A stretch of DNA of 64,000 bases from Cymbomonas tetramitiformis (lineage: Eukaryota; Chlorophyta; Pyramimonadophyceae; Pyramimonadales; Pyramimonadaceae). Where the stretch lies: positions 62,001 through 126,000 of the forward strand of contig LGRX02035483.1 in the NCBI GenBank assembly GCA_001247695.2, in the 5' to 3' direction. This document shows, piece by piece, positions 15,116 to 62,693 of the stretch (its first letter is position 1; every line of letters begins with the position of its first letter). The position numbers and the translations under genes were made by a program. The notes under the pieces were generated by a model. The model worked only from the letters and a program-made list of their open reading frames with translations, ran no database searches and was not told where the DNA came from.

Positions 15116-16958
15116 TCACACAGCATTTTCCGATGTCTCTGAATAGGGCGCCGCGGGAATGAGGAGGATGTTGCCGTTCGAGTCTTCCTGTGTGGTTATA
15201 GCTAAATTGAAGGAACCTGCATCGAGTGTCAGTAAAGATCCACGAGAGATCGTAAAGTCGGTGTAACCAACGCCTCTTGAACTTATGTCCGACTGTCATG
15301 TTGGATTTATACGATCTTAAACGATAGACGAAAGCAAAGGCCTCGGCGAATCTTGTTCAGTTCGCGTCGCTTCTCTTTACCTGCTTTAAGGCCGTAAGCT
15401 CCTTCCGAATGTTGTCAACATCCATGCTCCACCCGCTGTTTGCGCGGCAGTACGGACAGGCCGATACAGTTCCAAGTTGGAGACAGTGACGGTGTACGGG
15501 GTGCAGACAGCGCTTGCAATTCACAACCGGCTTGTAGTTCTTGACAAAACTGACGTTGCAATAATGTGTAGTTTCCAAGCATATGGGACAAGCGGGCAAC
15601 GCGTCGCCGTCCTTTGGGGAGTATGGAGTGTTAAAGTACCGCATGCCGTCGTAAGGGCAGTGAATGCCGCACCCGTCTGCGACGTCAAAAAGCATGTGCG
15701 CCATGTCGAGGTCCGTGTACACGCCGCTGCTATGAGACGGTTTGAAACGCTCGCTTTTTGGTCCGTAACGAAACAGCACGTCCACAGCGATTCGCACGTT
15801 GACCACACAGAGCTGAGTCCACACGAACCCACGCGAAATTGACGTCCTATCTCCCATCACAGCTTGCGCCGCTCTATCCATAACTTTGAGGCGAGTCATG
15901 ATCGCATCGCCATTGCCTTGGTCGCACTCGAACAAAAGCCTCAGGTACGTGTCTCTGAAACGAAAGCCCATGACTTCCGTTGACCAGGTCAAGCTAGAGT
16001 CGTACGTGTATGGCGCGTCCGACGAGGTACCCTTTTGACGTAAGTAAGATTCGCAGCAGCCCTGCAGAAAGTGGTCGAACGCGGGAGGGAATAGCCCATC
16101 AAGTTGACTGGCTGCGAGCGTGAGTACTTGGTCGCACATGGATACGCGAGGTTCCGCGCGCTTGTAGATGGCACAGATGTACACGCTGGCGATCATGACG
16201 AGGGCGGTGGACGCTATGCGATCATAATCCCGCAGTGCTATGAGCTGCGGCAAGTCTCTGACAACGCCGCCGCTCAGAATCAGCCGATTCGTGACAAGAA
16301 ATTGCACCCAGTTAGCCCTCTTCGCCAGATCGGGGTTTGTCTCGCTGACAAATATGTTCGGGGCGTTTACGTAACTCTCGTTAACCGTCAAGCGCGCCAC
16401 TATGTTGTCCATCGCATCCGGTACCATTTTAAGTTCGACACGAAGCTGAGGGGGTAAAAAAGTGTACAGCTCGTCGACCTGTCCGTTGTTGCAAGAATCC
16501 ACCAAGCGCCGCTTCATAGGATAGTTGACGACGTTGACGTAAAACTCGTGCAACTCCGAATAAGTGCTTTTCATCAGAACAGGCAGAGTTTCGCTTAGCA
16601 GGGACACACTTAATATGCCCTCTGGTGTGGAAGTCGACACACGAGCGATCAAATTTGAAAAAGAAGGAAGGACGGGCTGCGACGTCAGAAAGTTCGCTTG
16701 TGGTGGAGATGAGCATCGCGTCGAGAACAAGGCCAAACGATCACCGCGTCGCTTTTCAAATGTTTGAAACAATATTGTACGTTCCGGGTCGCTCGTGTCG
16801 TGCCACCCGTTCTTTGAGCGCACGGACGTGCTGACATTGGTCGTCTCCGCTTCGTTCGTCCGGTCAAATTCCGACGCCTGCTGCTGCTGCTCTTGCTGCT
16901 GCCTCCTTCGTTGGGTCTTACGCCATCTTCTCGCGGCCGTTCCCGTGCGTGTAGGCAT
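15116..16958 (-). CDS. RING-finger protein, two exons
   Basis: Exon 1 16958-15381 (526 residues, ATG at 16958) and exon 2 15292-15116 (58 residues), 584 residues in all. Exon 1 starts with a basic, Gln-rich tail (RRQQQEQQQQ), then a ~400-residue helical region. A RING-type zinc finger lies at about residues 457-504 (CPIC, then NCKRC, HPVHRHC and CPYC). Such domains usually act as E3 ubiquitin ligases. Without splicing the frame stops at 15357, 12 codons into the intron. Exon 2 reads as compact beta-rich sequence (DFTISRGSLLTLDAGSF, then NGNILLIPAAPYSE) ending TGA at 15116. It heads a block with two more RING genes, suggesting a role in redirecting host ubiquitination. Confidence 0.75.
15293..15380 (-). 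other. Predicted spliceosomal intron (88 nt)
   Basis: GTAAAG donor after AAAGCAG; acceptor ATGACAG; phase 0. It joins the RING ORF to a coding-like downstream exon. Confidence 0.7.
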
Positions 16959-17351
16959 GCTTTAGAGACGTATTACCGATCAATTCGGCTGTTTACGGAC
17001 TCGCTGCGATCGAGTGTCGTTTTGCCGCGTGAGGAAGGTAATCTGTGTGAACGTCAAATTTAGGTTTGTGTGATTGTTTCACAAGTTCGATCGACGAATT
17101 GCGCATGACAGTTCTCCAGATCACCTGAGGATTAACCTTTCGTGAGGGGTCAAATTTGGGAATCTCTTTTTACGGCGGACATTTTCTGGAAATGCACCCC
17201 GATAGAGAATTGACTCTCAGCGTCACGACGTACGTAAATTACGTTTTTTTAAACTCGTATTAGCTGGTAAATATACGGTGTTTACGACAAACTCGTTGCG
17301 CGCAATCAGCGACGGCTCGCGACGATCTACCTATCGGCGCACGCGAAAAGA

Positions 17352-17546
17352 ATGTGGCGCCAAACGTATATCGTTGCGACGATAGTGCTCGTGTGCGCTA
17401 TAAACCTGGCGTATGTTGTCATACACGAGGGTTTGTATCGATTTGTGACGCGCGAAGATAGCGATCTGTACGAGGATACAGAAGATGGCGATCTCTCAAG
17501 CAACGGATCACTCGTGGGAAGGCACTCGAGGATTATCAACTCTTAG
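17352..17546 (+). CDS. Small single-span membrane protein
   Basis: 64 residues, ATG at 17352. Residues 5-22 (TYIVATIVLVCAINLAYVV) form a membrane helix; the rest is acidic and hydrophilic (EDSDLYEDTEDGDLSS). Small viral membrane proteins of this shape are common, but no family is recognised. A weak AT-rich TATA-like stretch lies about 80 bp upstream. The gap 16959-17351 before it holds no other gene I can support. Confidence 0.5.
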   Translation: MWRQTYIVATIVLVCAINLAYVVIHEGLYRFVTREDSDLYEDTEDGDLSSNGSLVGRHSRIINS

Positions 17547-18096
17547 GCGCATTGAAGAGGTAACCTTTTTCATCGCTGAAAGAATCGGAGCGACGAGTTG
17601 CAAGCTTCGCGGATTGTATATAAGCTTCGACTTACTGAGCAACTTAGGTTTTTCGCGCGCGCGAAGTACGGGGGGGGGGTGTATCGCGCGCGTAAAATGG
17701 AGTGTTGTCTGAGGATGTTCATCGAGTCTTACACATTCATGCGAGACATCCGAATTCAAGAGTTGACTTTCGGTATCATTGTTGTTGTTTCTTAAGGATC
17801 GATTCGACGAGCGGCACACTTCGCGTATCTTATACAAGCTCCGACGTGCACTGACGGCTTTACGCTTGTATCTATCTCGTCGAGCCTTGACGACACGAGC
17901 GACGTGACGATCGAATAGATGATTCAAAAAAACATCCTGTGAAGTGCCCGGTATAAGACCATAAAAAAATGCTCGATTTTCTACTGCGAGCTTCCCTGCT
18001 TCGAATGACTCCGCGGACGAGCAGTTCGTTACATTAGTCGCCGACGCGTGTCGCGTGCACGGGCGAAATCACCCTGAAAGACGTCATACGTGGTCC
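17547..18096. other. Intergenic region with hairpin and possible minus-strand exon
   Basis: Apart from the hairpin at 17653, a minus-strand frame from about 17941 downwards (VFLNHLFDRHVARVVKARRD) reads like a basic protein. It is preceded by a good acceptor (CACTTCACAG). An upstream exon might be the five codons from the ATG at 18088 with donor GTGATT. It runs into the hairpin, so its true end is unclear. I do not call a gene. Confidence 0.25.
17653..17693. repeat. CG-rich hairpin with G10 run
   Basis: TCGCGCGCGCGA arm, then a run of ten G (17670-17679), then TCGCGCGCG. Same design as 19005 and 63121; the C5-loop versions at 5575 and 7111 look like the shorter, opposite-strand form. Confidence 0.8.
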
Positions 18097-19004: not shown

Positions 19005-19054
19005 TTTTTCGCGCGCGAGAGACATGGGGGGGGGGGTGTCGCGCGCGCGCGAGA
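19005..19054. repeat. CG-rich hairpin with G11 run
   Basis: TTTTTCGCGCGCGAG arm (19005-19019), eleven G (19026-19036), then GTCGCGCGCGCGCGAG. It lies in the 437-bp gap 18808-19244, which otherwise holds no gene I can support. Confidence 0.85.
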
Positions 19055-20411: not shown

Positions 20412-20454
20412 CTAAGTTCTTAATGCTTGGTGCGTGTAGAGTTTGTGTGGCGGT

Positions 20455-22554: not shown

Positions 22555-23072
22555 TCACGAACTCGTGCATGCATCGACGAATTCGAGATATCTCTTGTGC
22601 AGCATAGCCCTAATAGCGGCGAGCTCCGTAATCCGCGCGCGCTTGTTAGCCGGTTCAAGCTCCGAGCTCGTACGCTTACGACTTCCCTCTTCCTCAAACA
22701 GTTTCTTGCTGATGTTTTCGCGAATCGCTCTGCCCAAATGCACAGCCAGTGTAGTGCGCTCACGATACGCGCGATAGTCATCGCCGCGGCGCCTGCTCGC
22801 GTCTCGTGCGTGGTCCGGGGTACACGCAGGTATCTGCGCCGGGTCGTGTTCAGCATCAAGTCGTGACCGTGGGTTATCGTATACAGACAAATGCAAAAAC
22901 AAGATGATCGAGATCGAGCGTACCAGCGCGGTGTCCTCCGAGCGCCTCTCGCATCTAAAGCAGCACGAAGGCTGAAAAGTGCTCGACGAATGGTTGTTCC
23001 AGCGATGGTGCTGCATACTGTGTTCACAAAGTGGAATCGTCTCGCGACGATCAAATGCCAAATCGGACGCAT
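22555..23072 (-). CDS. Small basic two-exon protein
   Basis: Exon 1 23072-22924 (ATG at 23072) and exon 2 22792-22555 give 128 residues. Both unspliced frames are poor: one lacks an ATG start, the other turns into low-quality sequence after the donor. The joined protein is strongly basic and helical. Its N-terminal Arg-rich helices lead across the splice into WRRGDDYRAYRERTTLAV, followed by EEEGSRKRTSSELEPANKRA, which contains a possible bipartite nuclear localisation signal, and a C-terminal helix. A nuclear or DNA-binding role is inferred from charge. No family is recognised. Confidence 0.55.
22793..22923 (-). other. Predicted spliceosomal intron (131 nt)
   Basis: GTACGC donor, GCGAGCAG acceptor, phase 2. 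It joins two coding-like stretches in different frames. Confidence 0.6.
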
Positions 23073-26881: not shown

Positions 26882-26884
26882 CAA

Positions 26885-30672: not shown

Positions 30673-33600
30673 TCATACCATCATACCGAAGCCCGTGGTC
30701 ACAGCACCACCTCCGCCTCTTCGCATGTTGTTGTAACTGACCGGCTCCAGGTACTTACTCAGACCTCTTCGGACCTTACCGCAGCCAGGATACACTCGTT
30801 CTCCCCAATGCCCGGTGTTTAAACAGACACGGTCCAGGTGACCGGTGTTGTGATTGTAACTGGCTTGATGTCCTTGAAAACACATCGTGTTGCCCCTGGT
30901 GGAAGTTTCGAAGTACGGAAGATCTCCCGCAGGCGCGTTTATCGGGAAAAACTCGTACATCTCTCTGTACGTCTCGGCCGTGCTGTAATGAGGCTCCCGC
31001 GCGCTCTGTAGACACGTGTGTGGTTCGAAGGTTCCGGTCACCGAGATGGGATTGTCCTTGATCCTCTCGTCGAAGCCGATCAAACACGGATACAACGAAG
31101 GCGTCTTATCGTCGTATACGTGAGCGTCCTCCCGTCTGTCTCTGTTACAAAAGAACTCGCTGCCGCCTCCGCCGATATAATTCGCACAGAATATGTCTTC
31201 GGCCAAGTGCACATTGGTCGGCCTGTACACGATCGACTTCTCGTAGATGGTGAAGTTTCCGTAATGCATCTTTTGAATCACGTTGTCGCTAAGTTGAAAG
31301 TCGTAATGACCGATCAAGGTCTCGCCCGTCTCTACGCCTGCCTTTGTCAAGATGGCGGTGCACATCTCGTAAGTCTGGTACGGACGGAGCAACAGGTAGC
31401 CGAACGGGAACATTATATCGTTCTTAACCAGCGACACCAGAAACTCTTTGTCGAGTCTTTGAGTGCAAAAGAGGATGTACACCAACAGGGAGTGCGGTTT
31501 CGATCCCAGACCGCGAAAGGCGCTAATCATACGGTTGAACTTTCTGGAGGTAACCGCCAGGTTGGGCAAGGAGGCGACAGACGCGTCCGCCATCGCCGCT
31601 TGTCGAGAGCTTCCAGCCAAGCCGGTCATTGAACGACCGTCGATTTGCACCTCTGCGGCATCGGTGGACGGGCCGCTGCACCACTCGTCGAAGATCAAAT
31701 CGCTGCTTTTGTTGCCGAGGTGATACGTTCTTTGCGACTTTAGATAGAGGACAAACATGGACATCACTTCGTCGCGACGCTCGGTCGGGTGATTCTTTCG
31801 TGTGAAGAGTCCTTCGCCGGACAAACGTTTGGGTGCTTTGAATGCGGTACGAATTTGCCCCGACTTGCGCGGAAGCGGCGCTTCGCGGGCTTGTGCCGTA
31901 CGTGTCACTCGAAGGTGCACTATGCCATCCCCTAAGCTCAACATACTATCGCCGCTTTCGGCATCGCCATGGTACAAGCACAATTGCGAATTGGGTAAAC
32001 CCGTAAACGTATTCTCGACCAGATCCGACCACGAGGTGATGGCTTGAAGTGTGGGGTCGTTTTGGATGGAGTTCATCAAGGTACACGCCGTTCGGTAATA
32101 CTGTATCGCCGCATTGTGGGGCTGACAAAGCCCCACCTGCACGTATGCCCACTTTAAAATGTACGCCAGGGCAATCTTGGCGACGAGAAGCACCTTTTGG
32201 TTCCCGGCTGATGTCTGGCGGCGGAAGTGAACCCACAACAGAGTGATCAGCGCACGTCTTATTGCTTCTTCGTGCTCCGTACTGGTGCTCGTCAGGTGTG
32301 CCAAGCATTCTTCAAGTTCCTTTTGCGTCACGCGGAAGTTATGCTGCAACAAATCCATCAATTCTTGGCGCGAAATTTGTTCGACAGCATCGCTTGGAGA
32401 ATGGCAATTTCGCAAGATTTCGAAAACGTCTCCGTTATCCTGACTGAAATTAAAACCTTCGATACGATGGACGAGTCGATGGAAAAAGGTGTTTCCCGCT
32501 TGGCTCACGCCATACTCCATGGCGTTGTCCATGCTGACGTCGACGACATGGCCGGCGAGATTATCCTCTACCGTCACGTAGGTTTCAAAATCGTTTCTGT
32601 TAAGAAACATCAGACCTCTCGAAGTGAAATCTGCGCCTTCGTGCAGTTTGTGACGATCGACGTGCACGTTTCCAGGCTGCTGATGCCTAACCACGCACAC
32701 GTTGAACAGATCGTCCTCTTTCAAAGTCAGCGTGTTGTGCTTAAAAACGTGCTTCACGTTTCGGTGTAGATGCAGATACATCTGGATGGTTTTGTCGCAC
32801 TTGTCGCTCTGGTATATCCGATTTTCGTTAGCCTTCGCCAGGCTGCGAGTCCCGTGCAAGGTGTTGAACCCCACGGGTTTGCAGTCGCACGGTTCGCCGC
32901 GACGGATATACTGAGACGTGGACATGTACTGGAACAAAGCGCGCGTCAGGAAAAGAGACACTTCGAGTGTTTTGTAGACGATGTCGGAGACGGACGCGTT
33001 GTCTATCAGCGAGAACACGCACCTCCGGGTTCCCATGACAGAGCAATACATGTCGATGTTCGGAGACCCGTACGTCGCATCCTTCGAGTTCTCGAACCAA
33101 AGTCCGCACAGATCCGCGCACAGGCGCTCGACGTGAGCGACGATATGTCGAAACTGCTCCAATTCGCTGGTGTTGGTCACGGTGGCTCTGATCACGGCAA
33201 CGAAAACCGCCGTGCACGTCTGCTGGAAAGACTGCACCGTCAGTTGCGGCGGCAGTGGAAGCAGCTCTTGATCATCATCGTGTCTCGTGATCTGATTTCT
33301 GTACACGCGATGCAAATCTTGGTCGACGTCTTGCAAGGAGCTGAAGTACGTTTCTTCGGACGCGATGCCGTGACACAGCATCCAAAAGGCGTAAGCGTCC
33401 TCCTTTTTAGCGAAACATTCGCGAGCCTTTTGCGAGATGAGGCATTTGGAGTGGATATCCTTGATACTGGTCACGTCCACACACAGCTGCAAATCGCGGA
33501 TTCGCTTGAAGAGATCTTTTGTGTTGGCCGGGAAGGACTCCGACCCAATCTTGGTCACGTCGTTGTCCATGTCGATCAAATACTGCGGCGCGGACCGTCC

Positions 33601-35116
33601 AAAGCTCTCGACAAAGTTGGATCGATCCCCCTCTTCGAAGTAAGTGTCCGCGAACAGCATCAAGGTGTTGTCGCTCATCGGAGGACCGCGCGACACGTTC
33701 GCCTCCGTCTCTTCCTGCCTAGGAATGTCTCCTAATTCGACGTCGTGCACTCTCGAGTTCAAGTCCGATATGGGGGTGCGCATATACCCGGCATTGTCCG
33801 ATCGATGCAAGTGCCCATCGCTCATCGAATCGGAGACGATTTCCTTGTCCGCTATCACCTCGTACATGGATTTGTCGAGAAGCGGGTCGCTCTGAATGGC
33901 GTCGATCAAGCGAATTTCCACGAAGTTGTCGACATCCTCGTCGTAGATGACGATGTTGCGTTGCGACGAAACGTACTTCGCGCGGTAGTGCACCGCCTCC
34001 TCGTCCTCCTGCATGATGAAGAACTCCCCGATGGCTCTGTTTCGACGTGTGACGTCGATAGGTTCGGACATCTCGGGCATCTCAAAGCTTTTGGTCTCGA
34101 AAATGTTACAGTCGTTCCTGGCGTCTACCACGTTCGCTGGTGCTCCGTTGAGTCCGCTTTTAAAGTTTTGCGGTCCTTCGGGGCCCGCGAGCATGTAAGT
34201 GTAATTCTCTCTGCGAACCTGCGTGATGTACGGCTTCATACCCTCGGGAATGATCCAAGTGTCGGGCTGCACATCCTTGGATCGCAGGTAACGCTTGCAG
34301 CGGCTATCGAGCAGATCCCACCCGTGCTCCGTCTTTTGGATGGTCGCGAAGTCCTCGAGCTCCATCATGAGCGCTTTTCGAGCGGCGGCCGAGGAGCGAA
34401 CTCCACCGAAGCGCTCGTTCCACATGTCATCGTACGATTTGCATCGCAAGAGCGACTCGAGCACGCCCAGGTACACCGTTTCCAGCACCGCGTTTCGAAT
34501 CTGCTGAAGGTTGTTGATGTAGCACATGCGACCTTTTTCCGTGTTCATGAAGCCGTGCTCCAAAATCATGGCCAGACCGTACCGCGTGTAATGATCGCGT
34601 CGCTCGCTCATTTGTTGACTGACCAAACGACTGACTCCCTCCTCGGGAACCGGTCCGAGCAAGTGTCGGTTAAAGTGATACTCGTTCCATTGTATGGTGG
34701 ACGTGTCTCTGGTTTCGCGGTAGGGCAAGACGATAGTGGGCCACATATCCTGCGCGAACGAGTCCGGTGGCGCGTGAATAAACGCGGCACGAAAAACACA
34801 CACACCGGGTTTCCGCGACACAATCGACACCACGCACCTCTTTGGTGATGAGCGCGATCATGACGTTGGTCATGAAGGGAGAGTATCCTAAATACGCCTC
34901 GGGCAGCGCGAAATTCTCTCGACCGTATTGGTCATACGGCGACAACAGGTACGGTTTGGGATTTTCGCCGAAGTACGGCGAGAAGCGAGCGGTAGGGTTG
35001 TTCAGCTCTTGCGGATTGTTGCCGGATGCGACGGGTCTCTGGTCCACTCCGTGTGCCCTTCCACTGCCGGCGTCTGCGCTCGTGCCCACGTACGCGCCTG
35101 GCGCTCCTGTCGCCAT
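30673..35116 (-). CDS. Probable HK97-fold major capsid protein, herpes/mirusvirus type, two exons
   Basis: Exon 1 35116-34838 (93 residues, ATG at 35116), exon 2 34749-30673 (1,358 residues), 1,451 in all. The unspliced 1,386-residue frame has no good ATG-plus-TATA start, whereas exon 1 begins 57 bp from a TATATATATATA box. The splice joins two well-ordered segments (NVMIALITKE to DMWPTIVLPYRE). The size matches herpesvirus-type major capsid proteins (~1,370 residues). The protein is soluble, mixed alpha/beta, without signal peptide or TM segment, and ends in a Gly-rich tail. The identification rests on size, the portal-like gene 1.8 kb away and the heliorhodopsin, not on a sequence motif. 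It would assemble in the nucleus into the capsid shell. Confidence 0.65.
34750..34837 (-). other. Predicted spliceosomal intron in the capsid gene (88 nt)
   Basis: GTGCGT donor after AAAGAG, GCGCAG acceptor, phase 0. Confidence 0.75.
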
Positions 35117-46700: not shown

Positions 46701-49398
46701 TTCCGCGGTATCAAGAAAGTGTGGCTGCATGTGGGACTCCTTGGCCAAAATGGCGACATTCAGTCTACTCGGCAAGCCATTCTGGAATGCCTGATCATAA
46801 GGTATCATCGGCGAGGAGGAGCTGCCGCAAGTGGGTAGCAGATAACACCGGCAATCGCCCGTCTGGCAGTCGTTGTTGTTCGAATCGTATACCACAACCG
46901 CGAAGTTTTGTTGCACGTCGTTGCTGAGATAACTTGCGCACGACGAAACACGAAGCGCACTGCCTTCTTCGCCCACCCAAATGGACGCCCACGCGTTCGC
47001 CAACTCCGGGCACACGTAGACCGGCTCCGTCTCATTTGCTACTGATACAGCTCCCCAGCTGATCAATTCGTAGATGTTGGTGATACCCGTTGCTGGATGC
47101 TGGTAGTTTTTGTCGCGCATATTCGCAACCTTCGTCCACTGGCACTCGTCGTATTGACCTGCCACCGTGAGCATGCAGGACGAGCCGAAGGATTGTGTCT
47201 CCTCCCATGTTCTATAATCGTCCTTCCGCAGAATTTGCCTTGTCGCCGGTCGGAAGAGGTGCGCAGGGGCCGAGATGAACGCCTCGTCGGTGATCGTGAT
47301 ACCGTTGTACGTTACAATATTCATTTTGACCTTGAGCGATACGCGATTAAGGTTGACTGTCGAAGTCATGGTGAGGTTGGTGCACGTGTATTCTCCTCCG
47401 ACACATTTGCTGGTTTTGGTGTCAAACGCGCTCCACAAACAAGCTGGATCGGTGGCGCAGGTTTGAATGCAGTAACGCGAATTTTGAGTGGAGAGGACAC
47501 CGTAATCCAAGGTTGGGTCGGAGCAAGATATGGAGATCAGATTGTTCAGCACCGGGTTGTTCGGTTTGCCATTCAGAACGCTGTATACCAGATCTGCCAT
47601 GCCGTCTACGAGAGAAGGGGTCAGAATCACAAGCTCCTCCAAACCTGACATCGCTTGCTGATCGGTAAGCGCAATGACATTTCCCTTGTTCAAGTACAAC
47701 TTGAAGTCGGTCACCACCACCGGGAAGTTGGCATAAAAGATACTTTGCGTATCTCTGTCTCTGTTGATCAGCACGCTAGCAAAGGCGCCGAAGCGTAAAA
47801 TGCTCGATACGTTGAACGTCGCAAACACGACATCCCGGTCGTACAACCAATTGAAGTTACTGGGCGCGCCGGAGGTCGCCAGCCAAGCAAAATGAGCCTT
47901 CACGATCGTCGCCTCCGAGTTGTATTCCGGATGGATCACGTGGATCCGATCGCGATCAAGCCCGTGAGTTCCATCGGCGTACAGGACATCCCGAACGGCG
48001 TCCTCGAAAGCGCTACGATTAGCGGTAGAAATATCGTCTTGAGTCAGGTTGACGAATTTGATAAATACCGTTTTGGAGACCACCGAATCAACGTCCGGAG
48101 GAGGATGCGGTGGAGTAGGTGGAGGAGGCGAAGGCGGAGGCGAGGGAGGAGAAGGAGGAGGCGATGGAGGAGGTGGAGGAGGGGGCGGAGGAGGGCTTGG
48201 TGGAGGAGGGGCGGTGGAGGTGGTGGAGGAGGAGGTGGTGGAGGAGGAGGAGGGGCGGTGGAGGAGGGGGCGGTGGAGGAGGAGGGAAAGGAATGTAAGG
48301 AGGCGGAGGCGGTGGAGACGAGGGAGGAGGCGGTGGCGAAGGAGGAGGCGGAGGCGAAGGAGGAGGCGGAGGCGAAGGAGGAGGCGGAGGCGAAGGAGGA
48401 GGAGGAGGCGAAGGAGGAGGAGGAGGCGAAGGAGGAGGCGGAGGCGAAGGAGGAGGCGGAGGCGAAGGAGGAGGCGGAGGCGAGGGAGGAGGCGGAGACG
48501 GAGACGAGGGTGGAAGCGAGGGCGGAGGCGGAGGAGGATATTGGCACCGACACAGGCACTGAGCGTTGTCACTACAAGCTGCGGGTGACAGGGTGTACGC
48601 GTTGAAAAACACGCTATGACCGTTCTGACCCTCAAGCACTCCACATCCGTAAGGGACATTGGTATTCTCCCCCGCTGCGATGTAGTGGTCGTAGTGAGCT
48701 ATGTACCTGTCGGCAATTTGTTCGCACTGCGTCTCGTTGTCGATATTTAGGTGTCCGTGGTCTACGCAGTTTTGGGTTGTAAACAGATCCGCGCCGATCA
48801 CATCGTCCGTGCTCGAGTCGCAAGTCAGATTCGACAACGTGTACGTCAGAGGAGGCGACATAAAACCTGGAGCTGGCGGGGGTGAAGGCAAAGGAGGCGG
48901 CGAAGGCGAAGGAGGAGGCGGAGGCGAAGGAGGAGTATCCAAAGGAACAGAAGGCAAAGGCGAAGGAGGAGGTGGGGACATAGGATCAGGAGGTGGGGAC
49001 ATAGGAGAAGGCGGAGGGGATATAGGAGGTGGATATACACACGCAGAAGTAGTTACGCGATGACCAATCCCATCGCGGGCCAAACACAAACATTCATTCG
49101 TTGCAGTGCATTGTACATTGCTTGTTTCTGCGGTATTGTAATAGTAGACTTCGGTAACACCATCATACGAACAACCGAGAGGACGTTCATCGGTATAGAC
49201 GCTCTGAAGCTCACCATTAGATCTGAATGATGGGCCGCAATACATGGATGCTATAATATAAAACTCTTCTTCCATTTCTTCCGGTTGTGGATGAACCCCC
49301 TCTGGCATGAGAAAACAAACCAGGAGTATCGAGGCAAACTTCCAGTGATGATTGGTGTGAGAGCGCATCGTCCGAGGGGATTTGAAAGTTCCCGACAT
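40714..49398 (-). CDS. Giant proline-rich surface glycoprotein (~2,820 aa), three exons, frame breaks in the Pro run
   Basis: Exon 1 49398-42603, exon 2 42489-42379, exon 3 42267-40714. Signal peptide at about residues 20-36. Cys module 1 (about 54-104), Pro-rich linker, Cys module 2 (225-285), then a long PPPPPSPPPPP run, a ~1,900-residue ectodomain, Cys module 3 (about 2555-2620), a Ser/Asp-rich stalk, one TM helix (LLAVAIAIVSVFVILLLAGV) and a basic tail. The modules share P-x-GC...YFN...CS...CxC. A PAN/apple-like segment (CIQTCATDPACLWSAF) follows the Pro run. The N-terminal frame and the main frame meet inside the Pro run. Two C4 tracts where neighbours have C5 would explain the two one-base shifts, and the exon lengths then stay in phase. 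Probably a virion spike or adhesin. Confidence 0.75.
42268..42378 (-). other. Predicted in-frame intron in the giant gene (111 nt)
   Basis: GTAAGA donor, CTGTGCGCAG acceptor, phase 0. It has no stop codon, so it would be missed by ORF calling; the retained reading (basic, low quality) contrasts with its flanks. Confidence 0.6.
42490..42602 (-). other. Predicted spliceosomal intron in the giant gene (113 nt)
   Basis: GTACGC donor after ACCGAC, CTGTGCGCAG acceptor, phase 0. It links the 2,000-residue frame to the C-terminal frame carrying the membrane anchor. Confidence 0.75.
48097..48538 (-). repeat. Proline-codon low-complexity tract
   Basis: On the minus strand, runs of CCT/CCA/CCG/CCC with periodic TCG or TCC encode PPPPPSPPPPP arrays. 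Long pure C tracts of 4 and 5 occur near 48195-48275; the reading frame of the giant gene shifts here. Confidence 0.9.
48850..49035 (-). repeat. Second, shorter proline-rich tract
   Basis: Encodes SPPPSPMSPPPDPMSPPPP-type sequence between Cys modules 1 and 2 of the giant protein; the frame is intact here. Confidence 0.85.
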
Positions 49399-49575
49399 TC
49401 GCGTGTACACCGAAGTGCTTGCAACAATACTGTGCAAAGAAGGAGACGCGATAAGCCTGATCTATTTGAAGCCAGGAACAAGGACAAGAAAGTAAGGACA
49501 CTGGGAGGTGTTTAAAACATGATTGTGCACATGCGCGCGTAACCAAGTCTCAGCTCGCAACAGGACCAAAGCCGC

Positions 49576-49706: not shown

Positions 49707-49843
49707 CCACGACCGTACCGAAATCGGAAGAACATATCTTGCACGTTTATTCACTTCGCAAAAACGCATTCGTTTGTAGCGCGACGCCGATAAATATAGC
49801 GAATCAAAAGAGTGCACCGTGGCGCGGCAGTCACGTCTTAGAA

Positions 49844-52453
49844 ATGATTTGTCGATCATATTTTTACAACATTCGTCAGATTGTGCGCACAGTCGCGTAC
49901 TTCTGCTTGAGCTTGAGCGTGGCCGCGCAATTTGATGATTCGATGCCAAACACGCAATTAGCTTCGCACGACACTCTAGTGTGCGGAGTCCCCAGTGTAA
50001 AATCCACGTCCATTGACAACAACGAGCGGATGCACGTCGAAATCGATATTCCGATGCCGGCTGGTGAAACGTCTGATTCCATTGCTTTTGCCATTCTCTT
50101 CGGTGATCTCAAAACGGCCAACGAAAAACTGGCGGGAACTTGCAAATTGCAGGATCTAGATATCATCTTCGATCCCAGCGGGACTGCCTTTTCCGATATT
50201 TTGAGCGATAAGTGCGGACAAAGCGGAGACGGTTACGACCAGTACGCTAGATACACGGGTAACACAATAACCGACACGCGCAAGACACCCCCCTATAAAA
50301 TTTGCCCGATGATAGCGGACGGCTATATTTGCGTACCCCACAGGCCTGTGCTACGCGATGTGGTATGGCATACTAGTGTGCGTAACGCCACAGATGCGCC
50401 ATCCGTATGCAACCTCGGGATATCCACGTGGAAGGTGAGCTTTGACATTTCCGATTGGACGGCGTCACAGACCATGAGTGACAACGGCATTACGAAACAG
50501 CAAATTGACGACGCTCAGATATTTACTTTTCCGCTTCGTATTTTTGTCACGTCCGTATCCAAGGCGTCCCAGCACGCGGAAACCTATTACTCGCCTTATA
50601 GGTTTCAGCTGCACCAGAGGGCATCGGTCTTCATGAATTTACCGATCATGGAAACGCAGTTATCGGGATTTCGATCCCATTACATTAGAAACTTTCAACA
50701 GACCAGCGGAGACGTGACGTTCGGTGCAATAAGCTCGCTTCAGGACGAAACCGTCAGCTTGGATATCGCAAAATTGACCTTTGAAATGGTCTTCTTCAAA
50801 GAAGCGAACTATGACTCGATTCCGGACATAAGCGTTGACATCGACGACCTCATGGTGAATATCGGCGACCTTACCTCCTCGAGCACGACGTATGAACTTT
50901 ACGACATGGATGATAATTCTCTTCCGTCCGGTGGGCATTGTCTCGATGCCACCGACACGGATGTAAGCATCATTATGGTGCACAGTGCCGCCGAAGTGGT
51001 CGACCGAAGCGAAGTGATGGGAACCAACGACATTCGGTCTTACGACGGTACTTTTTTTAAGCAAGTGTTGAATGTTACGTGCTACCTGCGCGTGCAACGG
51101 GGAACTCTCACTATGTCGGATGACCACACGGTGCCATTGATTTTTGACTACACGCACACCTACACCGATCTTAATTCCACGACCTTGATGACCAATCCGA
51201 TTCGTAAACCGATTGCAATCTTTGAGCACGAACTGATTTTAAGGGAAATGACGATGCTGGAATACGAGACGCCGCTAAAAGGAGCGATGTACAAGATTCC
51301 GCAAGAAAAAATACGAAATGTCGATCGTGACGTATGGACTGTGAATGACGTGCGCGGCTCTATGGTCAAAGCGTTCTCCAACAGAGGAGACGCCCCTAGA
51401 CTTGTTAAGGCTGTTTCGGTAAACACGCCGATCGTGGCAGCGGTTACCTTGGCGAACGAAAATGACCTTCCTAACTATGATATCAGCCTTGTTGCCGGGT
51501 TTTTGACTGCAAATAAGGTCGACGCGCCAAAGTTTGTCGCTTTCGGGGACGGCAACAAAACACAGCAGACCAACAAAACCATCACCGATCCGTGCAATCT
51601 GCACACGTATCACACGGTGCGTGCACGCCCTTGTCCGCTTGCTCTCTTTTCGTGACTTGCGTAGAAGAACGTACGGTTGCGTGAACGGCCCTTTGATTGG
51701 TACGTGCGCTCACAATATTGTCGGTGTAAATGCGGGAGATTTTTGACGGGCGCACGACGGGGTCTGGTGCAGAACGACGCTCTCCTCGGAATGGCCACGT
51801 TGTTTAAGAATGAAAGCGCGGACGCGTACGCTACGAGACTTTCCTCCGATGTTCGCTCGTATCTAGAAAACAGAGACGACAAAAATTATTTCGTTAAAAA
51901 CGACTTTTTCCAAATTAACGACATTTTAAAAACAGAACCGATTACCATGAACCACGAATTGGGAACGTTCGACGGAGCGCAAAACGTTCTCATCTTGCCC
52001 TTTCTGCCCAAGTTTCAAATCGCCAACAACAGACCCATCGACACTTACGAGACTCGAGTGTGCATGATAGTCGAGATTACAAACTACGCGGACAAATCCA
52101 AAACGAGTGCCAGCTCCAGAAAACTCATGCAGGTGACGGTGTCCACGGAAGCCGGTGGCGTTCTGGACCTACAGATCGCTATTTTGGGTCAAGACTACCC
52201 GGTCACTATGTGCGAAACAAACTGTTCGTACGATAACGGTACCGACAGCAACATAATCCTGCAGATGACCAAAAGTACTGCCACCGGCTCACATCACATC
52301 GGCAACCACGACGATAACGATGAGACCTTCACTGACACAAACTGGAAGCTGAGCATCAGTCTTATGGTCCTCGGATGCAGTGCCGTTTTGCTTCTCCTAG
52401 CCCTCGTCGGTGTATACTGGTACCGAGCATCCATGCAGTTTGAAGCAGACTGA
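49844..52453 (+). CDS. Type I membrane glycoprotein (817 aa), two exons
   Basis: Exon 1 49844-51616 (591 residues) and exon 2 51773-52453 (226 residues). The first ATG of the frame is at 49844, giving a signal peptide (hydrophobic core TVAYFCLSLSVAA). The ectodomain is beta-rich with several Asn-x-Thr/Ser sites and paired Cys. Near the C-terminus is one TM helix (LSISLMVLGCSAVLLLLALV) and a short tail (RASMQFEAD). Without splicing, exon 1 would stop at 51655 with no anchor and exon 2 would lack a start. It is divergent from the giant surface gene, and a segment around residue 380 (NDIRSYDGTFFKQVLNVTCY) resembles one in the giant protein. Likely a virion envelope glycoprotein for attachment or fusion. 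Confidence 0.8.
51617..51772 (+). other. Predicted spliceosomal intron in the glycoprotein gene (156 nt)
   Basis: GTGCGT donor (same hexamer as the capsid-gene intron), CTGGTGCAG acceptor, phase 0. Confidence 0.75.
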
Positions 52454-52584: not shown

Positions 52585-52741
52585 CGTACGGCTGCTTCAC
52601 GGAGAATAAGGATCCCCGAAAATAAGAATTTTATAGGATGTTGGGGCCGTGAGATGATACTTAACACTGGTTTATTAACCGAATTTTGAATATATAAACC
52701 GTTCATTTGCCCGATTTGATTACTCCGTTCAGCACCTTATA
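52585..52741. repeat. Dispersed ~150-bp repeat, copy 3
   Basis: ATGTTGGGGCCGTGAGATGA, then TAACACTGGTTTATTAACCG and TTACTCCGTTCAGCACC match copies 1 and 2. It lies in the 778-bp gap 52454-53231, which holds no other supported gene. Confidence 0.8.
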
Positions 52742-53140
52742 TTTGGTGGAATACCCGTAGTCGTGTGAAACCGTCGACATCAATCGCATTTATAAACTCT
52801 AATTTAGCGCTCCTGAACGTACACGCCATCACCGTTACTCGAACACTGGTGTTTTTTATGCATGTAGTGTGACATATTACGCGCATATACTTCGTATCTC
52901 TAACGAGCTTGTAGACAGACCCGTGTGATATTATTTGCAACCTCTTTCAATGATCCCGCGACACGTTCGTATACACTCTCAACGTCTCCGTCTGTAGTAT
53001 CGATAAACTCGACCACGTTTATTTTTCATTTGCAGGCAGTAGAAGGGTAGACTGCGAACAGTGGCTTACGATCACGATCGGAGTCATCGAAACGTGCCTT
53101 TTAAGATTGACCGTCGCACGTTTCGGCACGATCGTATATG

Positions 53141-54574: not shown

Positions 54575-55154
54575 CTACCTGTGGTGGTCTAGCCACGCGC
54601 CGTTCTGCAGCATAACAGCCGTGGAGGGCGCCTGAATGATGGGCAGGGAGAGGGACTGCGTCCTCGTACACTTTTTGCAATGCTGCAATAAGCAGAGCAC
54701 ACACACGGCGCAGGCGGTGGTGACGCACATCAGTAAGCTGTAGCTTTGTAACGTCGTCGCAACGATGTGCGCGATTCGCCATACTTGCGACTCGGCTTCG
54801 GACCAAACGTCTTGCAGCGTGTATAGAATAGCTCGTGCCAGTACCTGCAGCAACGATGCGCGTACGTTATCCGATTATATCCGAAGGCGCGATAGGAGAC
54901 GGCGTGGAAACAACACCGACCTTGTCGTTGAGGGACTCTTGATGTATGAGAGAGCAATCCACGAAATCGTCGATGTATCGAATCAGCTGGCCGTTGTCGT
55001 TGATGCACACCGCCAACAGGAGTCTGCGCGCCTCCTCGTTTCGTTGGATCAGAAAATGCGCGTGCTTCTTGTACTGCTCCCACGAGTACAACGCGAGCAT
55101 GGACAAAGGGATCGTGCAGAAAGACACGATGCAGACCTCTGCTCGATTTCGCAT
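54575..55154 (-). CDS. Two-helix membrane protein, two exons
   Basis: Exon 1 55154-54921 (78 residues, ATG at 55154) and exon 2 54844-54575 (89 residues), 167 in all. The first TM helix lies near the N-terminus (AEVCIVSFCTIPLSMLALYS), the second in exon 2 (LLMCVTTACAVCVLCLL), with a ~80-residue polar loop between. A hairpin topology with both ends on the same side is expected. Exon frames are otherwise separate ORFs, and exon 2 alone has no ATG. No family is recognised. It is divergent from the heliorhodopsin gene; a functional link is speculative. Confidence 0.6.
54845..54920 (-). other. Predicted spliceosomal intron (76 nt)
   Basis: GTCGGT donor after GACAAG (a less typical donor), GTTGCTGCAG acceptor, phase 0. 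Confidence 0.55.
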
Positions 55155-55395: not shown

Positions 55396-55580
55396 CTGAC
55401 TCCCTGTGACAACTATCAATTTTCTCATTTTAAGGTTTCGTGAAATGCGACTGGGTCGTGAGTCGTTTGCCGCATGTCGTACAGCTCTTCCTGTCCACCA
55501 CGATTCACGGTGTTTTCCGCGTGTCCAAGATATTGTGCGATAGACTCTCGCGTCCGTATTCGTACTTTACGCACGGTTTC

Positions 55581-55602
55581 GTATATATATATATATATAT
55601 AG
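55581..55602 (+). promoter_or_regulatory. Extended TATA run upstream of heliorhodopsin
   Basis: About 20 bp of alternating TA, 93-114 bp upstream of the ATG at 55695. Confidence 0.55.
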
Positions 55603-55694
55603 GTACCAAGACGAGCGGGTACCCCGAACATCGTCACTCTTACCTTTTGACGCGTCTTTCGACCGTCGATGTGCTCAAGCGCACGAGTCAAAGA

Positions 55695-56780
55695 ATGGAC
55701 ACGCTTTTTTACAAGGTGTATAATTTCGTACTTTTCGCTTTGTTTTACGTGCAAGCGACGACAATGGTCTGCTTGTCACCCGTCGGAGAGGTTTCAGTGA
55801 CGCAAGCGTACACGCATTACAGTGATGAAGGTCGAGTCTTGGAAGCTAAACACACCGTTCTCTTCGACGTGGACGTCGTGTCCCTAGTACATATTTTTTT
55901 GTTGACGAGCGCGTCACAGCATCTGGTTTACGCGCTCCAGTACACTTTCGTGCCCAAAAGCTTAGTAGCGCACGCGAACGAGTTCGGCGTTTTTTGGGTA
56001 CGATGGAGCGACTACGTACTGACAGCGCCTGTGATGATGGTCGTCGTGGGCATTATGAACGCAATTTTCGACGTCGTGGTGCTTGCGACTTTATTTGGAT
56101 GCATATTTGCCACTCTCGGGCTTGGCGTGCTTTCTGACGTTCTGGTCGCTACATGCATCGTATCCACGCAAAGCAATCAGACCTCGCGGGACAACAAAGC
56201 TTTGCGCGTGGTGCACGAGAATCCGCACGACTCGGTTTGGTTGACATATTTACTTGTGTGCGTTTGGTCGGTTCCGCCGAACATTCTTGTGATATACTTC
56301 GTCACGTCACGGGTTCCGTTGTACGTCATAACGTCGACCGCTATTGTCACGGGGTACATGTGCGTAGTGCTGCGCCTGTCGGACAACGGCTGCGGGACGG
56401 TGCGTGCTTTTTGGTCTCTTCAAAAAGAGGCGGCGTGTGCAACGGCCAAAGTTACGTTCGCGCTCGCATGCCTACCCTGCGTCTACGCTTGGGCGGTTGT
56501 TTTCGGCAACTTCGCAGCCACCTTGTACAAGAGCGAGGAGAATCCGCCAGAGTTTGTTTACGCAATAAACATCGTTCTGCTACTCCTATTTTTGGGCCCA
56601 TTTCCGTACATTCACTACGCAAGTATAGAAGAGGCGTGCAGGCGCATATCAGACGAAAGCAGTAAGCTTTATTACGAAACGAGTCACGCCATGTTCGGAT
56701 TTGTTAGCAAAAGCGCGCTAGCATGGTTAGTGTATTGGGGTATTCGTCGAATTCAGGATGACGTGGACGTTGTAAACTGA
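55695..56780 (+). CDS. Heliorhodopsin (viral)
   Basis: 361 residues from the only upstream ATG (55695). Seven membrane helices. Helix C carries RWSDYVLTAPVMM (103-115), matching the heliorhodopsin R-W-x-E-Y signature but with D106 in the usual Glu counterion position. Helix F is PPEFVYAINIVLLLLF, close to the family's x-x-F-V-Y-A-I. Helix G is FVSKSALAWLVYW with the Schiff-base lysine K339. The long loop after helix A (about 26-60) fits the extended A-B loop of the family. Heliorhodopsins are inverted-topology, retinal-binding light sensors or, in some viruses, ion channels. At 361 residues it is larger than cellular versions (~250-280) because of longer loops around 155-180 and 275-325. Viral heliorhodopsins are known from haptophyte viruses and mirusviruses. 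Confidence 0.9.
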   Translation: MDTLFYKVYNFVLFALFYVQATTMVCLSPVGEVSVTQAYTHYSDEGRVLEAKHTVLFDVDVVSLVHIFLLTSASQHLVYALQYTFVPKSLVAHANEFGVFWVRWSDYVLTAPVMMVVVGIMNAIFDVVVLATLFGCIFATLGLGVLSDVLVATCIVSTQSNQTSRDNKALRVVHENPHDSVWLTYLLVCVWSVPPNILVIYFVTSRVPLYVITSTAIVTGYMCVVLRLSDNGCGTVRAFWSLQKEAACATAKVTFALACLPCVYAWAVVFGNFAATLYKSEENPPEFVYAINIVLLLLFLGPFPYIHYASIEEACRRISDESSKLYYETSHAMFGFVSKSALAWLVYWGIRRIQDDVDVVN

Positions 56781-56871: not shown

Positions 56872-58521
56872 TTACGCAGCGTTTTTTGTATATCGACGCT
56901 TGGACTTCGAGCAGTGTTTGGTGCTGCCGCTGGCCTTGGGCGATGGCAGAGGTTCCCTTTTATTCTTGCGCGACGATCGCGTCTCGCCTTCGTCGAGATC
57001 GGTGCTCAACAGTCCCTTCGCAAAGTCCCAGGCGTTGGCGTTTTTGCGTAAAGCGTAGTAGAAAGCGATGTCCGCTTTGCTGGAAGTATCCACCAGAACG
57101 CCTTTGAAATCGACGAGTCTTAATCCTTCCAGCGTACGGCACCGCGACAGGGCGACGTAAAAAGCCTTGTTATGAAAAATGTCGTTGCAATGCACAACCA
57201 GTTTGTCCACTTGAGAACCTTGCGCCTTGTACACCGTGGTAGCCCATGCCAACACGAGAGGCATATACCACACCTCGCACCGTTCTTGCACGCTTGTTTT
57301 TGTCATGCACGCGTAGACCTGTCGACTGGGGTGCATCGCGACCACGGATGCGTCGTCGTCGTCAAACCGTACGTGCACTCGGACGTTGTCAACCAACAAC
57401 AGATACTCGTGGTCGAGTTGGCACTCTCCATCCGGACCGATCATATCGACGACGGTGCCGATACGACCGTTCTTCATTCTCGGATCGCCGTAGTCGTACA
57501 GATTCTTGTTGATCATGACACGGGAGCCCACTCGGAGTACCAGTGTCTGCACATCCTTCACGTGATCCCTCTTACAGAAATCGTCCAGCTGTTCGCTGAT
57601 GCGACCCATGGTTTGCGGATGCCGCTCCGATAGGGGCATTGTGGTCCACTCCGGAATTTTGTCCTTTCGCGACTCGGATTCGACGATCCAGCGTTTGACT
57701 GCCGTGAGTTTTAATTCGAGATTGCCGTCAAGCTGTTTCATCATGCGATCGTTAATGTCGAATGCCAATCGATTCCCGCAGAGGTGTAGTGGCTGCTCTC
57801 CGGACGACGCGGAAATGTCAAAGGACAGCACGCTTCGTTGTTTCAGGAGCGACGTGTCCTCGGGGGTGGTGTTTCCGACCCGCAGTCTGCTCAAAAGATT
57901 TTTAAAGTCGGATTGGCTTTGACGCATATTCTCTTCCAGAAGCACCACTTTAAATTTTCCTTCGAGCATCAAAGAGCTCCTGTATAGCTTTTCCTCCGCG
58001 TCGCCGACAGCGTCCAGCTGCAAAAAGTCTCCGCATAGAAGGACGCGGACTCCTCCCATAAAAAGGTTCGGCTCCTCGCGAACCAGTCTGAAAAGCTTGT
58101 CCAGTATGAACAACTTGACACTCTTAAGCGTGGACACCTCGTCGATCGTCAGTATACCGCAGCTGCGAACCTGAAGCCAACGATCGTCATCGGGATGTCG
58201 CTTCATCAACTTTCGCACTTGCGCCTCACACTCTTGCGGGTTCTCGCATATGCTCACGCCCGCGAAAATACTATCCACCGTCACGCCCTCCACTTTTGCT
58301 GCCGCCATACCGTAAGGAGCCGCAATGATGGAACCTTTCGCGCTCACGTTGCGTTCGAACAACTTGTCCGTGTACACCCTGTTGCACAGTTTGATTATGG
58401 CGCTCTTGCCGGTGCCTCCCTCTCCAAGCAGCATGACGTTTCTGTTTTCGCGGACAACAGCTACGAGCGCTTCCTTTTGCATGCGGTTGAGGCTATCGTA
58501 TTTGCTGATCGCGTTAACCAT
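56872..58521 (-). CDS. PIF1-family SF1B DNA helicase
   Basis: 549 residues, ATG at 58521. Helicase motifs in order: LNRMQKEALVAV (Q-like motif), Walker A GEGGTGKS (33-40), motif Ia IIAAPYGMAAA, Walker B LTIDEVS (D127, E128), motif III LLCGDFLQLDAVGD, LLEENMRQ (motif IV), a GRIGTVVD strand, WATTVYKAQGSQVD (motif V) and YVALSRCRTLEGLRL (motif VI). These define the PIF1/RecD2 group. The protein is short and compact, with a basic Lys/Arg C-terminus (KNKREPLPSPK) that may direct it to the nucleus. It would unwind DNA at forks, G-quadruplexes or RNA-DNA hybrids; the window itself carries G-runs suited to G-quadruplex formation. It converges with the heliorhodopsin gene. Confidence 0.92.
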   Translation of the reverse strand: MVNAISKYDSLNRMQKEALVAVVRENRNVMLLGEGGTGKSAIIKLCNRVYTDKLFERNVSAKGSIIAAPYGMAAAKVEGVTVDSIFAGVSICENPQECEAQVRKLMKRHPDDDRWLQVRSCGILTIDEVSTLKSVKLFILDKLFRLVREEPNLFMGGVRVLLCGDFLQLDAVGDAEEKLYRSSLMLEGKFKVVLLEENMRQSQSDFKNLLSRLRVGNTTPEDTSLLKQRSVLSFDISASSGEQPLHLCGNRLAFDINDRMMKQLDGNLELKLTAVKRWIVESESRKDKIPEWTTMPLSERHPQTMGRISEQLDDFCKRDHVKDVQTLVLRVGSRVMINKNLYDYGDPRMKNGRIGTVVDMIGPDGECQLDHEYLLLVDNVRVHVRFDDDDASVVAMHPSRQVYACMTKTSVQERCEVWYMPLVLAWATTVYKAQGSQVDKLVVHCNDIFHNKAFYVALSRCRTLEGLRLVDFKGVLVDTSSKADIAFYYALRKNANAWDFAKGLLSTDLDEGETRSSRKNKREPLPSPKASGSTKHCSKSKRRYTKNAA

Positions 58522-59268: not shown

Positions 59269-59299
59269 GCAGGTTTTGGGCGTTACGCGTGCATGTACA

Positions 59300-59432
59300 C
59301 GTCTTTTGGAGTGGCCTGTCGGTAGGTGTGGGAATTCTTTGCGAGAGTGGCACCGCCACCTTTTACAGTGTTTATAATATTATTGTTGTGTCTTGGCAAT
59401 GTAATCTTCAAAATCTCACCGCCAAAACATAT
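59300..59432 (+). repeat. Copy of the ~100-bp intergenic element (forward)
   Basis: GGTGTGGGAATTCTTTGCGA, CCTTTTACAGTGTTTATAAT, GTCTTGGCAATGTAATCTTC and ACCGCCAAAAC; downstream of the 59268 stop. Confidence 0.65.
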
Positions 59433-59530
59433 CTGCAGATACCTGTTCCTTACACAAACTTGCTCTTAATATCCACTCCCCACGAACCCCGTCTCTGAGA
59501 CAATCTACGTACGCGAAGGTACGATTGTCG

Positions 59531-61507: not shown

Positions 61508-61599
61508 CAACTCGCTCTCTTGGATGTTCCGAAACTGATCCAACTTGGCGCTCGATGATACGACGTCCTTGCCATTGTGAGGTTTTGCAGTGTTGCGCG

Positions 61600-62693
61600 C
61601 TACCGAAAATACGGCCCTTGCGTGTTAAGTCTGATCGATTCGGGTGCCGTCCACTTCAGTTTGGATTGGTCGATCATCTTTATGCCGTCGGAGTTGACGC
61701 GCCACGAGAGTAAATGCTTCTCCGCGACGCACACGGATCCCGCCAGACCTTGAAACACCGGCGTGCTCTCGCGAGGTATCATAAACTCTGACGAGTACCC
61801 ATCCGAAGCGTTGCGTGGGTTCACGAAGCTGTTGATGATGATCGAAGCGTTCGAAAATTTATGCGTCGATTGGAGCATACACATGTAAGCGTAGTGTGTC
61901 TGCGTGCGCATACAGAGCAAGCACGGCCGCCGTTCCGTCGGTGGATGCCCGGTGTTATTGAAGACGTCCATCTCTTTGGGGTTCATGTACTCCTGAAGGA
62001 TTGTCCCACCGTGTACCTCGTGGCCTGCGCACGACGAACAAGCGGGTGTTGAATGCAGACTACTACCGAGCCCAGGTCTTCGTTTCATGTCTGCGCATCG
62101 ACATTCGAGATCGCTTGCACCCAGAATACGAAATGACGGTCCTTACCTTTTATCATGTGCGATAAACCTTGACATTGCTGTCCAAAAACACACGGACGCG
62201 TGCGCACTGTGGACCCATTTTTTAATCGAATCTCCACGGTCTCCGTAAGAAGCTTGCACTCGAAACTGTACGTTTGAGTGTGAATGACGTCGTGCACGTT
62301 GTGATACAGCACCTGGCTCGATTTGGATGTGTCTTTCGTGAAGTTAGACCCGCATAGTTTTAAAAGGTTCGAGTTTTCGATGAGACGTAATATGTTTATC
62401 AGCGGAGGATCCGAAATAAGCTCGTTCGGAATACCGTCAAAAGTTGTCCACGCTGATTTATTTCTTTTGCGTTTCGTTTCTCGGTCTTTCGCACTGACAC
62501 CTTTTTGAGTGTCCTTTTCGTGCTCGCCGAATGCGCGGTCCGTGTTGCTTGGCGCGTGCTTGTCATGGCAGGTTTCCGCGTCTTCGTTGCGGGTTTCTAA
62601 ATTGTCTCCACGATGAAAGAGGAGTTGCTTCCACGTGCTCGATATCGCTTTGTGAGAGCAAAGGGGTTCGGTGTGCGATTGCATCGCGTTCAT
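61600..62693 (-). CDS. Unrecognised two-exon protein (323 aa)
   Basis: Exon 1 62693-62147 (ATG at 62693) and exon 2 62024-61600. The two unspliced ORFs overlap by ATGA at 62085-62088, but a strong donor and acceptor join them more naturally. The N-terminal third is charged and probably disordered (GVSAKDRETKRKRNKS, a likely nuclear signal). The joined body reads through LSHMIKG|HEVHGGTILQ into RRPCLLCMRTQTHYAYMCML, with Cys pairs (CLLC) that may bind zinc, then a beta-rich C-terminus. A downstream acceptor at 62089 would also keep frame and retain 21 more residues. Family not recognised. Confidence 0.7.
62025..62146 (-). other. Predicted spliceosomal intron (122 nt)
   Basis: AAAAG then GTAAGG, the most canonical donor in the window; CGTGCGCAG acceptor; phase 1. 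Confidence 0.75.

Follow-up and report, generated by a model that had tools for sequence, protein, structure and literature searches.

Do the genes of a virus-like element lodged in an algal genome carry genuine spliceosomal introns, or are the GT-AG intervals between their reading frames produced by chance, sequence error or decay? This question is raised by a stretch of 64,000 nucleotides (nt), hereafter the window, from the assembled genome of a green alga, Cymbomonas tetramitiformis (assembly G000, contig C25294 of 501 kb, positions 62001-126000), which by its gene content is part of a virus-derived, mirusvirus-like element of the type named Cymbomonas heliorhodopsin-containing mobile element (CHeCME). 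A preliminary description of the window listed ten intervals and proposed at least ten spliceosomal introns in viral genes, including those for capsid and surface proteins. All ten begin with GT, end with AG and can join two frames in phase at their given coordinates. Sister copies of the genes bear out eight of them as introns, including those in the capsid and surface protein genes (34750, 36333, 37950, 42268, 42490, 51617, 54845 and 62025, named here by their lowest coordinate), while the interval at 15293 is refuted and the one at 22793 is unsupported as drawn. The element thus very probably contains eight ordinary major-class GT-AG introns of 76-156 nt, which the host spliceosome could remove and whose presence varies between copies. 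They are distributed over seven genes: the capsid gene, two surface protein genes (one with two introns), a hydrolase gene and three genes without assigned function. The interrupted genes and their supported introns are as follows, in coordinates of the window.

30673-35116, minus strand: major capsid protein (MCP) gene with HK97/herpesvirus-like fold; exon 1 34838-35116, exon 2 30673-34749 (homologs P0001-P0040)
34750-34837, minus strand: intron 1, 88 nt, phase 0 (sister copies)
35749-36811, minus strand: alpha/beta hydrolase gene; exon 1 36430-36811, exon 2 35749-36332 (Peptidase_S9 just over the Pfam cut-off in exon 2, other hydrolase families under it)
36333-36429, minus strand: intron 2, 97 nt, phase 1 (sister copies)
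36932-38240, plus strand: gene without assigned function; exon 1 36932-37949, exon 2 38029-38240 (gene model)
37950-38028, plus strand: intron 3, 79 nt, phase 1 (sister copies)
40714-49437, minus strand: giant surface glycoprotein gene; exon A about 42603-49437, exon B 42379-42489, exon C 40714-42267 with a transmembrane (TM) segment (P0041 and six homologs)
42490-42602, minus strand: intron 4, 113 nt, phase 0 (122-nt intron in the same place in contig C18469)
42268-42378, minus strand: intron 5, 111 nt, phase 0, open in frame (94-nt intron, not divisible by 3, in the same place in C18469)
49739-52453, plus strand: second surface protein gene with putative start; exon 1 to 51616, exon 2 51773-52453 with TM anchor (P0048-P0050; hydropathy)
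51617-51772, plus strand: intron 6, 156 nt, phase 0 (144-nt intron in the same place in C18469)
54575-55154, minus strand: gene without assigned function beside the heliorhodopsin gene; exon 1 54921-55154, exon 2 54575-54844 (gene model)
54845-54920, minus strand: intron 7, 76 nt, phase 0 (100-nt intron in the same place in C18469; 0 nt in C253)
61600-62693, minus strand: gene without assigned function; exon 1 62147-62693, exon 2 61600-62024 (gene model)
62025-62146, minus strand: intron 8, 122 nt, phase 1 (123-nt intron in the same place in C18469, the two sequences being alike)

Copies of the capsid gene with and without the intron

The identity of the capsid gene is indicated by P0018, a 33%-identical homolog whose fold matches herpesvirus major capsid proteins, as befits an HK97 capsid of the mirusvirus/herpesvirus type. 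When the capsid protein was used as query against the same assembly (851.7 Mb, 25,745 contigs), at least 59 matches on at least 33 contigs were obtained; the junction was examined in 22 contigs and was informative in 21. Five of these have their intron at one and the same codon (C25294, 88 nt; C13854 and C18469, 86 nt each; C24989, 351 nt; C15136, 131 nt) and the other 16 have exactly 0 nt there, which do not amount to 16 independent cases because 11 of them form one near-identical group. The introns of C24989 and C15136 (pieces L005 and L006) share their ends over 91 and 36 nt, and about 220 nt have been inserted or lost internally. Among the 40 homologous proteins, 32 continue across the junction, nine of them gapless within eight residues and 23 with a one-residue gap; P0002, and likewise P0041 and P0048 for the surface genes, are apparently gene models derived from this element itself.

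The intron is common to copies whose proteins are 62-63% identical, where synonymous divergence (dS) is saturated, and to copies at 86% identity, where the ratio of nonsynonymous to synonymous divergence (dN/dS) is 0.18 over 1355 codons. In the MCP tree the intron-bearing copies cluster, and a single origin is not rejected (p value of the approximately unbiased test, p-AU, 0.35). Both a gain in one lineage and a gain followed by losses would be compatible with the MCP trees.

The hydrolase gene and its neighbor

The hydrolase intron recurs at the same position in four contigs (C25294, 97 nt; C13854 and C18469, 206 nt each; C15136, 195 nt), and the junction measures 0 nt in C253, C15415, C25090, C316, C17221, C16245, C6848 and C17410. 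This absence count corresponds to eight of ten loci, since C18371 contains exon 2 only and the tenth locus is the C18469 piece fetched for the 54845 gene. The preliminary description held that the join recreates a conserved strand of the family, and this stands: the joined frame reads W-Q-G-Y-G, and most intron-free relatives encode a matching unbroken stretch ending in Y-G, C15415 lacking the second G. The family scores are mostly under the Pfam cut-offs. Hydrolase_4 spans the junction (E 2.9e-4 for the joined protein versus 0.0018 for exon 2 alone, which matches another part of the profile; both under the cut-off), Abhydrolase_6 is found only in the joined protein (E 0.035, also under the cut-off), and Peptidase_S9 is slightly weaker after joining (1.8e-4 versus 6.3e-5).

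The adjacent gene at 36932-38240, whose spliced protein matches no Pfam family over the cut-off, carries its intron at the same position in C13854 and C18469 (76 nt each) and in C15136 (66 nt). Its junction has 0 nt in C15415 and an alignment slack of 6 nt in C253, C25090 and C316, where the exon-2 alignments are weak (scores 66-81).

The surface protein genes

P0041 is the C. tetramitiformis protein CYMTET_55102. At each of the two junctions of the giant surface gene, 42490 and 42268, the homologous proteins are continuous in seven of seven cases, one of which appears to represent the gene model of this locus. Of these proteins, P0043 comprises 2440 amino acids on a contig of 7620 bases, a fit which requires that both introns are missing from it or that it stems from cDNA. 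At the 51617 junction two of three homologous proteins are continuous, one again apparently the gene model of this locus and the other P0050. Hydropathy upholds the earlier claim that the join in the surface gene adds a TM anchor: in the parts examined, the strongest hydrophobic segments lie in exon 2 of the 51617 gene and in exon C of the giant surface gene. An AlphaFold model of the second surface protein has a mean predicted local distance difference test score (pLDDT) of 36.5.

Exon A of the giant gene changes frame twice in a proline-rich repeat at about 48190-48300, where no convincing splice sites occur, and C18469 keeps one continuous frame through the same linker. An additional intron in the linker was rejected on these two grounds, and the gene seems to contain a break of the indel type beside its real introns. 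A further join, GTGCG..CGCAG at 48579-48727, passes a looser motif scan; it would excise a stretch that by eye resembles P0043 and is regarded as false.

The genes at 54575-55154 and 61600-62693

Family searches with the spliced 54845 and 62025 proteins gave no result. Their exons are nevertheless constrained in comparison with C18469, with dN/dS of 0.16 and 0.23 for the two exons of the first gene and 0.19 and 0.05 for those of the second. Comparison with intronless homologs, the check that the preliminary description had proposed, has now been made, and it yields 0-nt copies for the capsid, hydrolase and 54845 genes and copies with 0-6 nt for the 37950 gene. Introns would have been gained or lost while the elements diverged, because these four genes show both presence and absence, either cleanly or within 6 nt.

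Phase-compatible joins and the splice-site pattern

The ability of a GT-AG interval to join two frames in phase is of no diagnostic value in this window. Plain GT..AG pairs spaced by 60-160 nt produce 584 in-phase joins at 48 places, and the control pairs GA..TG, TC..GA, TG..GA and CT..AC produce 736-846 joins at 46-50 places. Since nonsense dinucleotide pairs join frames as often, such joins are no evidence by themselves, and the criterion was rejected as performing no better than chance. An extended motif, GTRMG...GYGCAG, was derived from the four introns first backed by proteins. With at least 100 codons upstream and at least 100 codons gained, it finds five joins, all of them listed intervals (34750, 36333, 42490, 51617 and 62025), three of which belonged to the four source introns. 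Five joins were reached by none of 1000 frequency-matched random motif pairs (mean 0.41, maximum 3) and by one of 987 permuted pairs. In a splice model built on the four introns, the held-out intervals at 36333, 37950 and 62025 rank first of 19, 14 and 46 alternatives, respectively. Over the full window, a score of at least 16 is reached by 32 GT-AG pairs of 60-200 nt, seven of which are listed intervals, four of these being the training set.

The ends of the introns in relatives were set solely by extending the peptide alignments of the flanking exons. Even so, all 20 introns compared (eight from the window and 12 from relatives, leaving out 15293 and 22793, and with L005 and L006 sharing both ends and thus not independent) start with GT, have G at position +5 and end with CAG, and 18 of them follow a G as the last exon nucleotide. 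They measure between 66 and 351 nt, and their lengths spread evenly over the three remainders modulo 3 (7/7/6); as 13 are no multiple of 3, most cannot be in-frame coding inserts. Intron sequences resemble those of a relative at 34750 (z 9.5), 42268 (z 6.2) and 62025 (z 7.2) and are unlike them at 51617 (z -0.4) and in the comparison of 34750 with C15136 (z -1.1). Introners were considered and dismissed: at an E threshold of 0.01, none of the eight introns resembles another of them or any other part of the window.

The two intervals that failed

The interval at 15293-15380 (minus strand) is not an intron and consists of the C-terminus and 3' flank of a gene at 15357-16958. In C13854 and C18469 the protein runs unspliced past the supposed donor, and its stop lies just as far on as that of the unspliced gene in the window; neither relative has a donor there, and exon 2 was not found in the fetched pieces. 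In the splice model the interval ranks fourth of nine, with a negative score.

The interval at 22793-22923 (minus strand) is a different case. Its upstream side is not conserved as coding sequence and has a negative codon score, its downstream side is conserved (69% identity, dN/dS 0.19), and the donor is plausible. The interval ranks first of 69 in the splice model. An alternative GYGCAG acceptor lies 41 nt further upstream at 22834 and is also present in the relative. A 5' intron at this locus is possible.

Interpretation and alternative explanations

The most likely account of these data is that the genes of the element are, or formerly were, transcribed in the nucleus and that their introns would be removed by the major spliceosome of the host, having been gained or lost while the elements diverged and the proteins stayed under purifying selection. 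The nuclear transcription and host splicing put forward in the preliminary description are reasonable inferences, and we infer in addition that the introns are spliced and predate endogenization, being of viral rather than host origin. What is observed directly is the position of the introns, their splice-site pattern, their presence or absence among copies, and the constraint on the proteins. The exons adjoining the introns have dN/dS of 0.05-0.28 wherever dS is unsaturated, and the proteins diverged as functional ones with the introns in place, which favors possession of introns by replicating elements over gain during decay.

Several points weigh against this account. The splice sites of 54845 are weak: the interval ranks second of 17 in the splice model and its donor fails the strict motif. 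Upstream of 62025, codon scores are about zero or a little below it (-0.01, -0.12). No intron-free DNA copy was seen for 42268, 42490, 51617 and 62025, each of which relies on one intron-bearing relative (C18469), and the further support for the first three comes from proteins that are gene models or predicted open reading frames (ORFs). In both relatives of 22793 the extrapolated intron end is off AG, and the motif of the chance test was picked after some of these introns had been seen. The case as a whole is built from DNA and protein comparison, and that the element is or was an active virus is a supposition. Moreover, most viral elements in the Cymbomonas genome are described as transcriptionally silent, in a sentence that concerns regions of polinton-like viruses (PLV) and does not name CHeCMEs (PMC10675990).

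Indels from sequencing or assembly, or the decay of pseudogenes, could break frames in a way that mimics introns. The published Cymbomonas assembly uses nanopore reads (PMC10675990), and the break in the proline-rich repeat looks to be of the indel type. However, indels do not place 66-351 nt between a GT with G at +5 and a CAG at the same codon in diverged copies while other copies hold exactly 0 nt, and purifying selection acts on the flanking exons. Sequencing error, which the preliminary description had itself named as what would undo its claim, is ruled out by the sister copies for the eight supported introns, and this explanation in its wider form is very improbable. Self-splicing introns of group I or II, inteins or programmed frameshifts would also interrupt frames, but all 20 introns share GT..CAG boundaries, 13 of the 20 lengths are not multiples of 3, and Rfam at gathering scores has no match in the window. 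Lengths of 66-351 nt are also too short for typical self-splicing introns. Although a putative group I intron has been reported in an endogenous giant virus of Cymbomonas (PMC10675990), such mechanisms are scarcely credible for the introns described here.

An explanation that deserves more weight, though still an unlikely one, is that the introns were gained after endogenization, while the host assimilated the viral genes. Introns in endogenous nucleocytoviruses have been interpreted in this way in the literature (PMC12768974), and introns in some transcripts from PLV regions of Cymbomonas were read as host genes or domestication (PMC10675990). The capsid intron shared between copies at 62-63% and at 86% identity, with the constraint measured for the latter, fits poorly with silent, decaying inserts; several of the introns lie in virion genes without obvious host use, and the MCP tree is compatible with a single origin. 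Introns already carried by the replicating element remain the better reading of these comparisons.

The surrounding element

The genes for heliorhodopsin, superfamily 1 helicase, RING-type protein, alpha/beta hydrolase and mirusvirus-type HK97 capsid co-occur in the element, which corresponds to the CHeCME gene set. Two of these genes are uninterrupted.

55440-56780, plus strand: heliorhodopsin gene (PF18761, E 3.2e-23)
56872-58521, minus strand: PIF1-like superfamily 1 helicase gene (PF05970, E 3.8e-14)

Terminase, portal, triplex and jelly-roll families were found neither in 29 ORFs searched against Pfam nor in 10 ORFs searched against PHROGs, within a 64-kb window that is part of a larger contig. 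Scans of viral contigs with the capsid protein, the capsid alignment, the 62025 gene and heliorhodopsin gave no relative, and of the PDB sequence searches one gave no match and another weak partial matches. The contig C25294 was sampled as 6-kb pieces (L061-L070), which have a guanine-cytosine (GC) content of 0.46-0.51, a CpG ratio of 1.30-1.57 and long ORFs in nine of ten, the window itself having a GC content of 0.503; the last sampled piece deviates (GC 0.568, CpG 1.07). Judged by this composition, the element could extend over several hundred kb. The strand of the capsid gene is equal in the window, C18469 and C13854. In C18469 the surface, 51617 and 62025 genes have the reverse orientation, and so does the gene at 15357-16958 in both C18469 and C13854, which suggests an inversion between elements.

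Two kinds of repeats were also noted. A hairpin with (CG)n arms and a C-rich loop occurs in five copies in the window (5577-5608, 7111-7139, 17654-17690, 19010-19045 and 63123-63160), four of them intergenic between ORFs and one within a small ORF, and among the matches listed it is also present in L061 and L063-L066 of C25294, in sampled flanks as far as about 60 kb off; it possibly marks transcript ends or serves as a structural signal. A direct repeat of 195 nt (6574-6768 and 52586-52780, 79% identical) lies 3' of a plus-strand ORF in each case and holds a 43-nt core with only two mismatches, a core found in none of 100 shuffles. The ORF at 10658-11938, a putative gene, is mostly GC-rich tandem repeat and is open in several frames on both strands.

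Relation to known mirusviruses and significance

Introns in mirusviruses are already known. A survey of the Mirusviricota reports 37,703 introns in 17,119 genes and infers nuclear transcription and host splicing for intron-rich mirusviruses (PMC12768974). Its GT-AG introns, which peak at about 80 bp, lie mostly in virion genes and vary in position among related genomes, resemble those described here, as do the heliorhodopsin and RING genes and the predicted nuclear reproduction (PMC12768974). The exceptional intron density suggested in the preliminary description does not hold against this background, since eight introns in 64 kb correspond to about 0.13 per kb, under the 0.2 per kb of Okeanovirales and the 0.18 per kb of Styxvirales (PMC12768974). 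In contrast to the survey, which by its own account works without host genomes (PMC12768974), copies with and without introns can here be compared within one host assembly; the present introns also lack the mutual similarity of introners and, at 76-156 nt, have no room for an endonuclease gene. Episomal or integrated mirusviruses of Aurantiochytrium likewise occur in the host nucleus and have many introns (0.62-0.65 per kb), but the episome is reported to make particles (Collier et al. 2023, cited in PMC12768974), whereas the Cymbomonas element is known from its sequence. In the main text of the survey, Cymbomonas appears in the reference list only (PMC12768974).

CHeCMEs were described from the same organism and with the same gene set, and their heliorhodopsin genes and neighbors are said to appear intron-free (PMC10675990). 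This is a descriptive remark rather than a defining feature of the group, and it applies here to the heliorhodopsin gene, which is uninterrupted, but not to the adjacent gene at 54575-55154, with its intron at 54845-54920, nor to several virion genes. No report of CHeCME introns was found in listings, abstract openings and main-text passages of the literature on mirusvirus introns and Cymbomonas viruses. The introns in CHeCME genes and the coexistence of copies with and without them in one sequenced host are thus new, and the published description of CHeCMEs is to be amended in this respect. For genomes with many long ORFs, the results also serve as a warning that phase-compatible GT-AG joins alone are worthless as evidence of introns.

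The entry and spread of spliceosomal introns in large DNA viruses are a standing question, and according to the survey the search for their source is hampered by missing host genomes (PMC12768974). A single sequenced alga that contains intron-bearing and intron-free copies, whose proteins are constrained on both sides, makes the direction, timing and source of intron gain testable. It is an even chance that at least four introns, those of the capsid, hydrolase, 37950 and 54845 genes, were acquired by one mirusvirus lineage of Cymbomonas and are missing from other lineages endogenized in the same genome. If this is true, the genome keeps the states before and after the colonization of a virus by introns, together with the host spliceosome and possibly the host introns that served as source.

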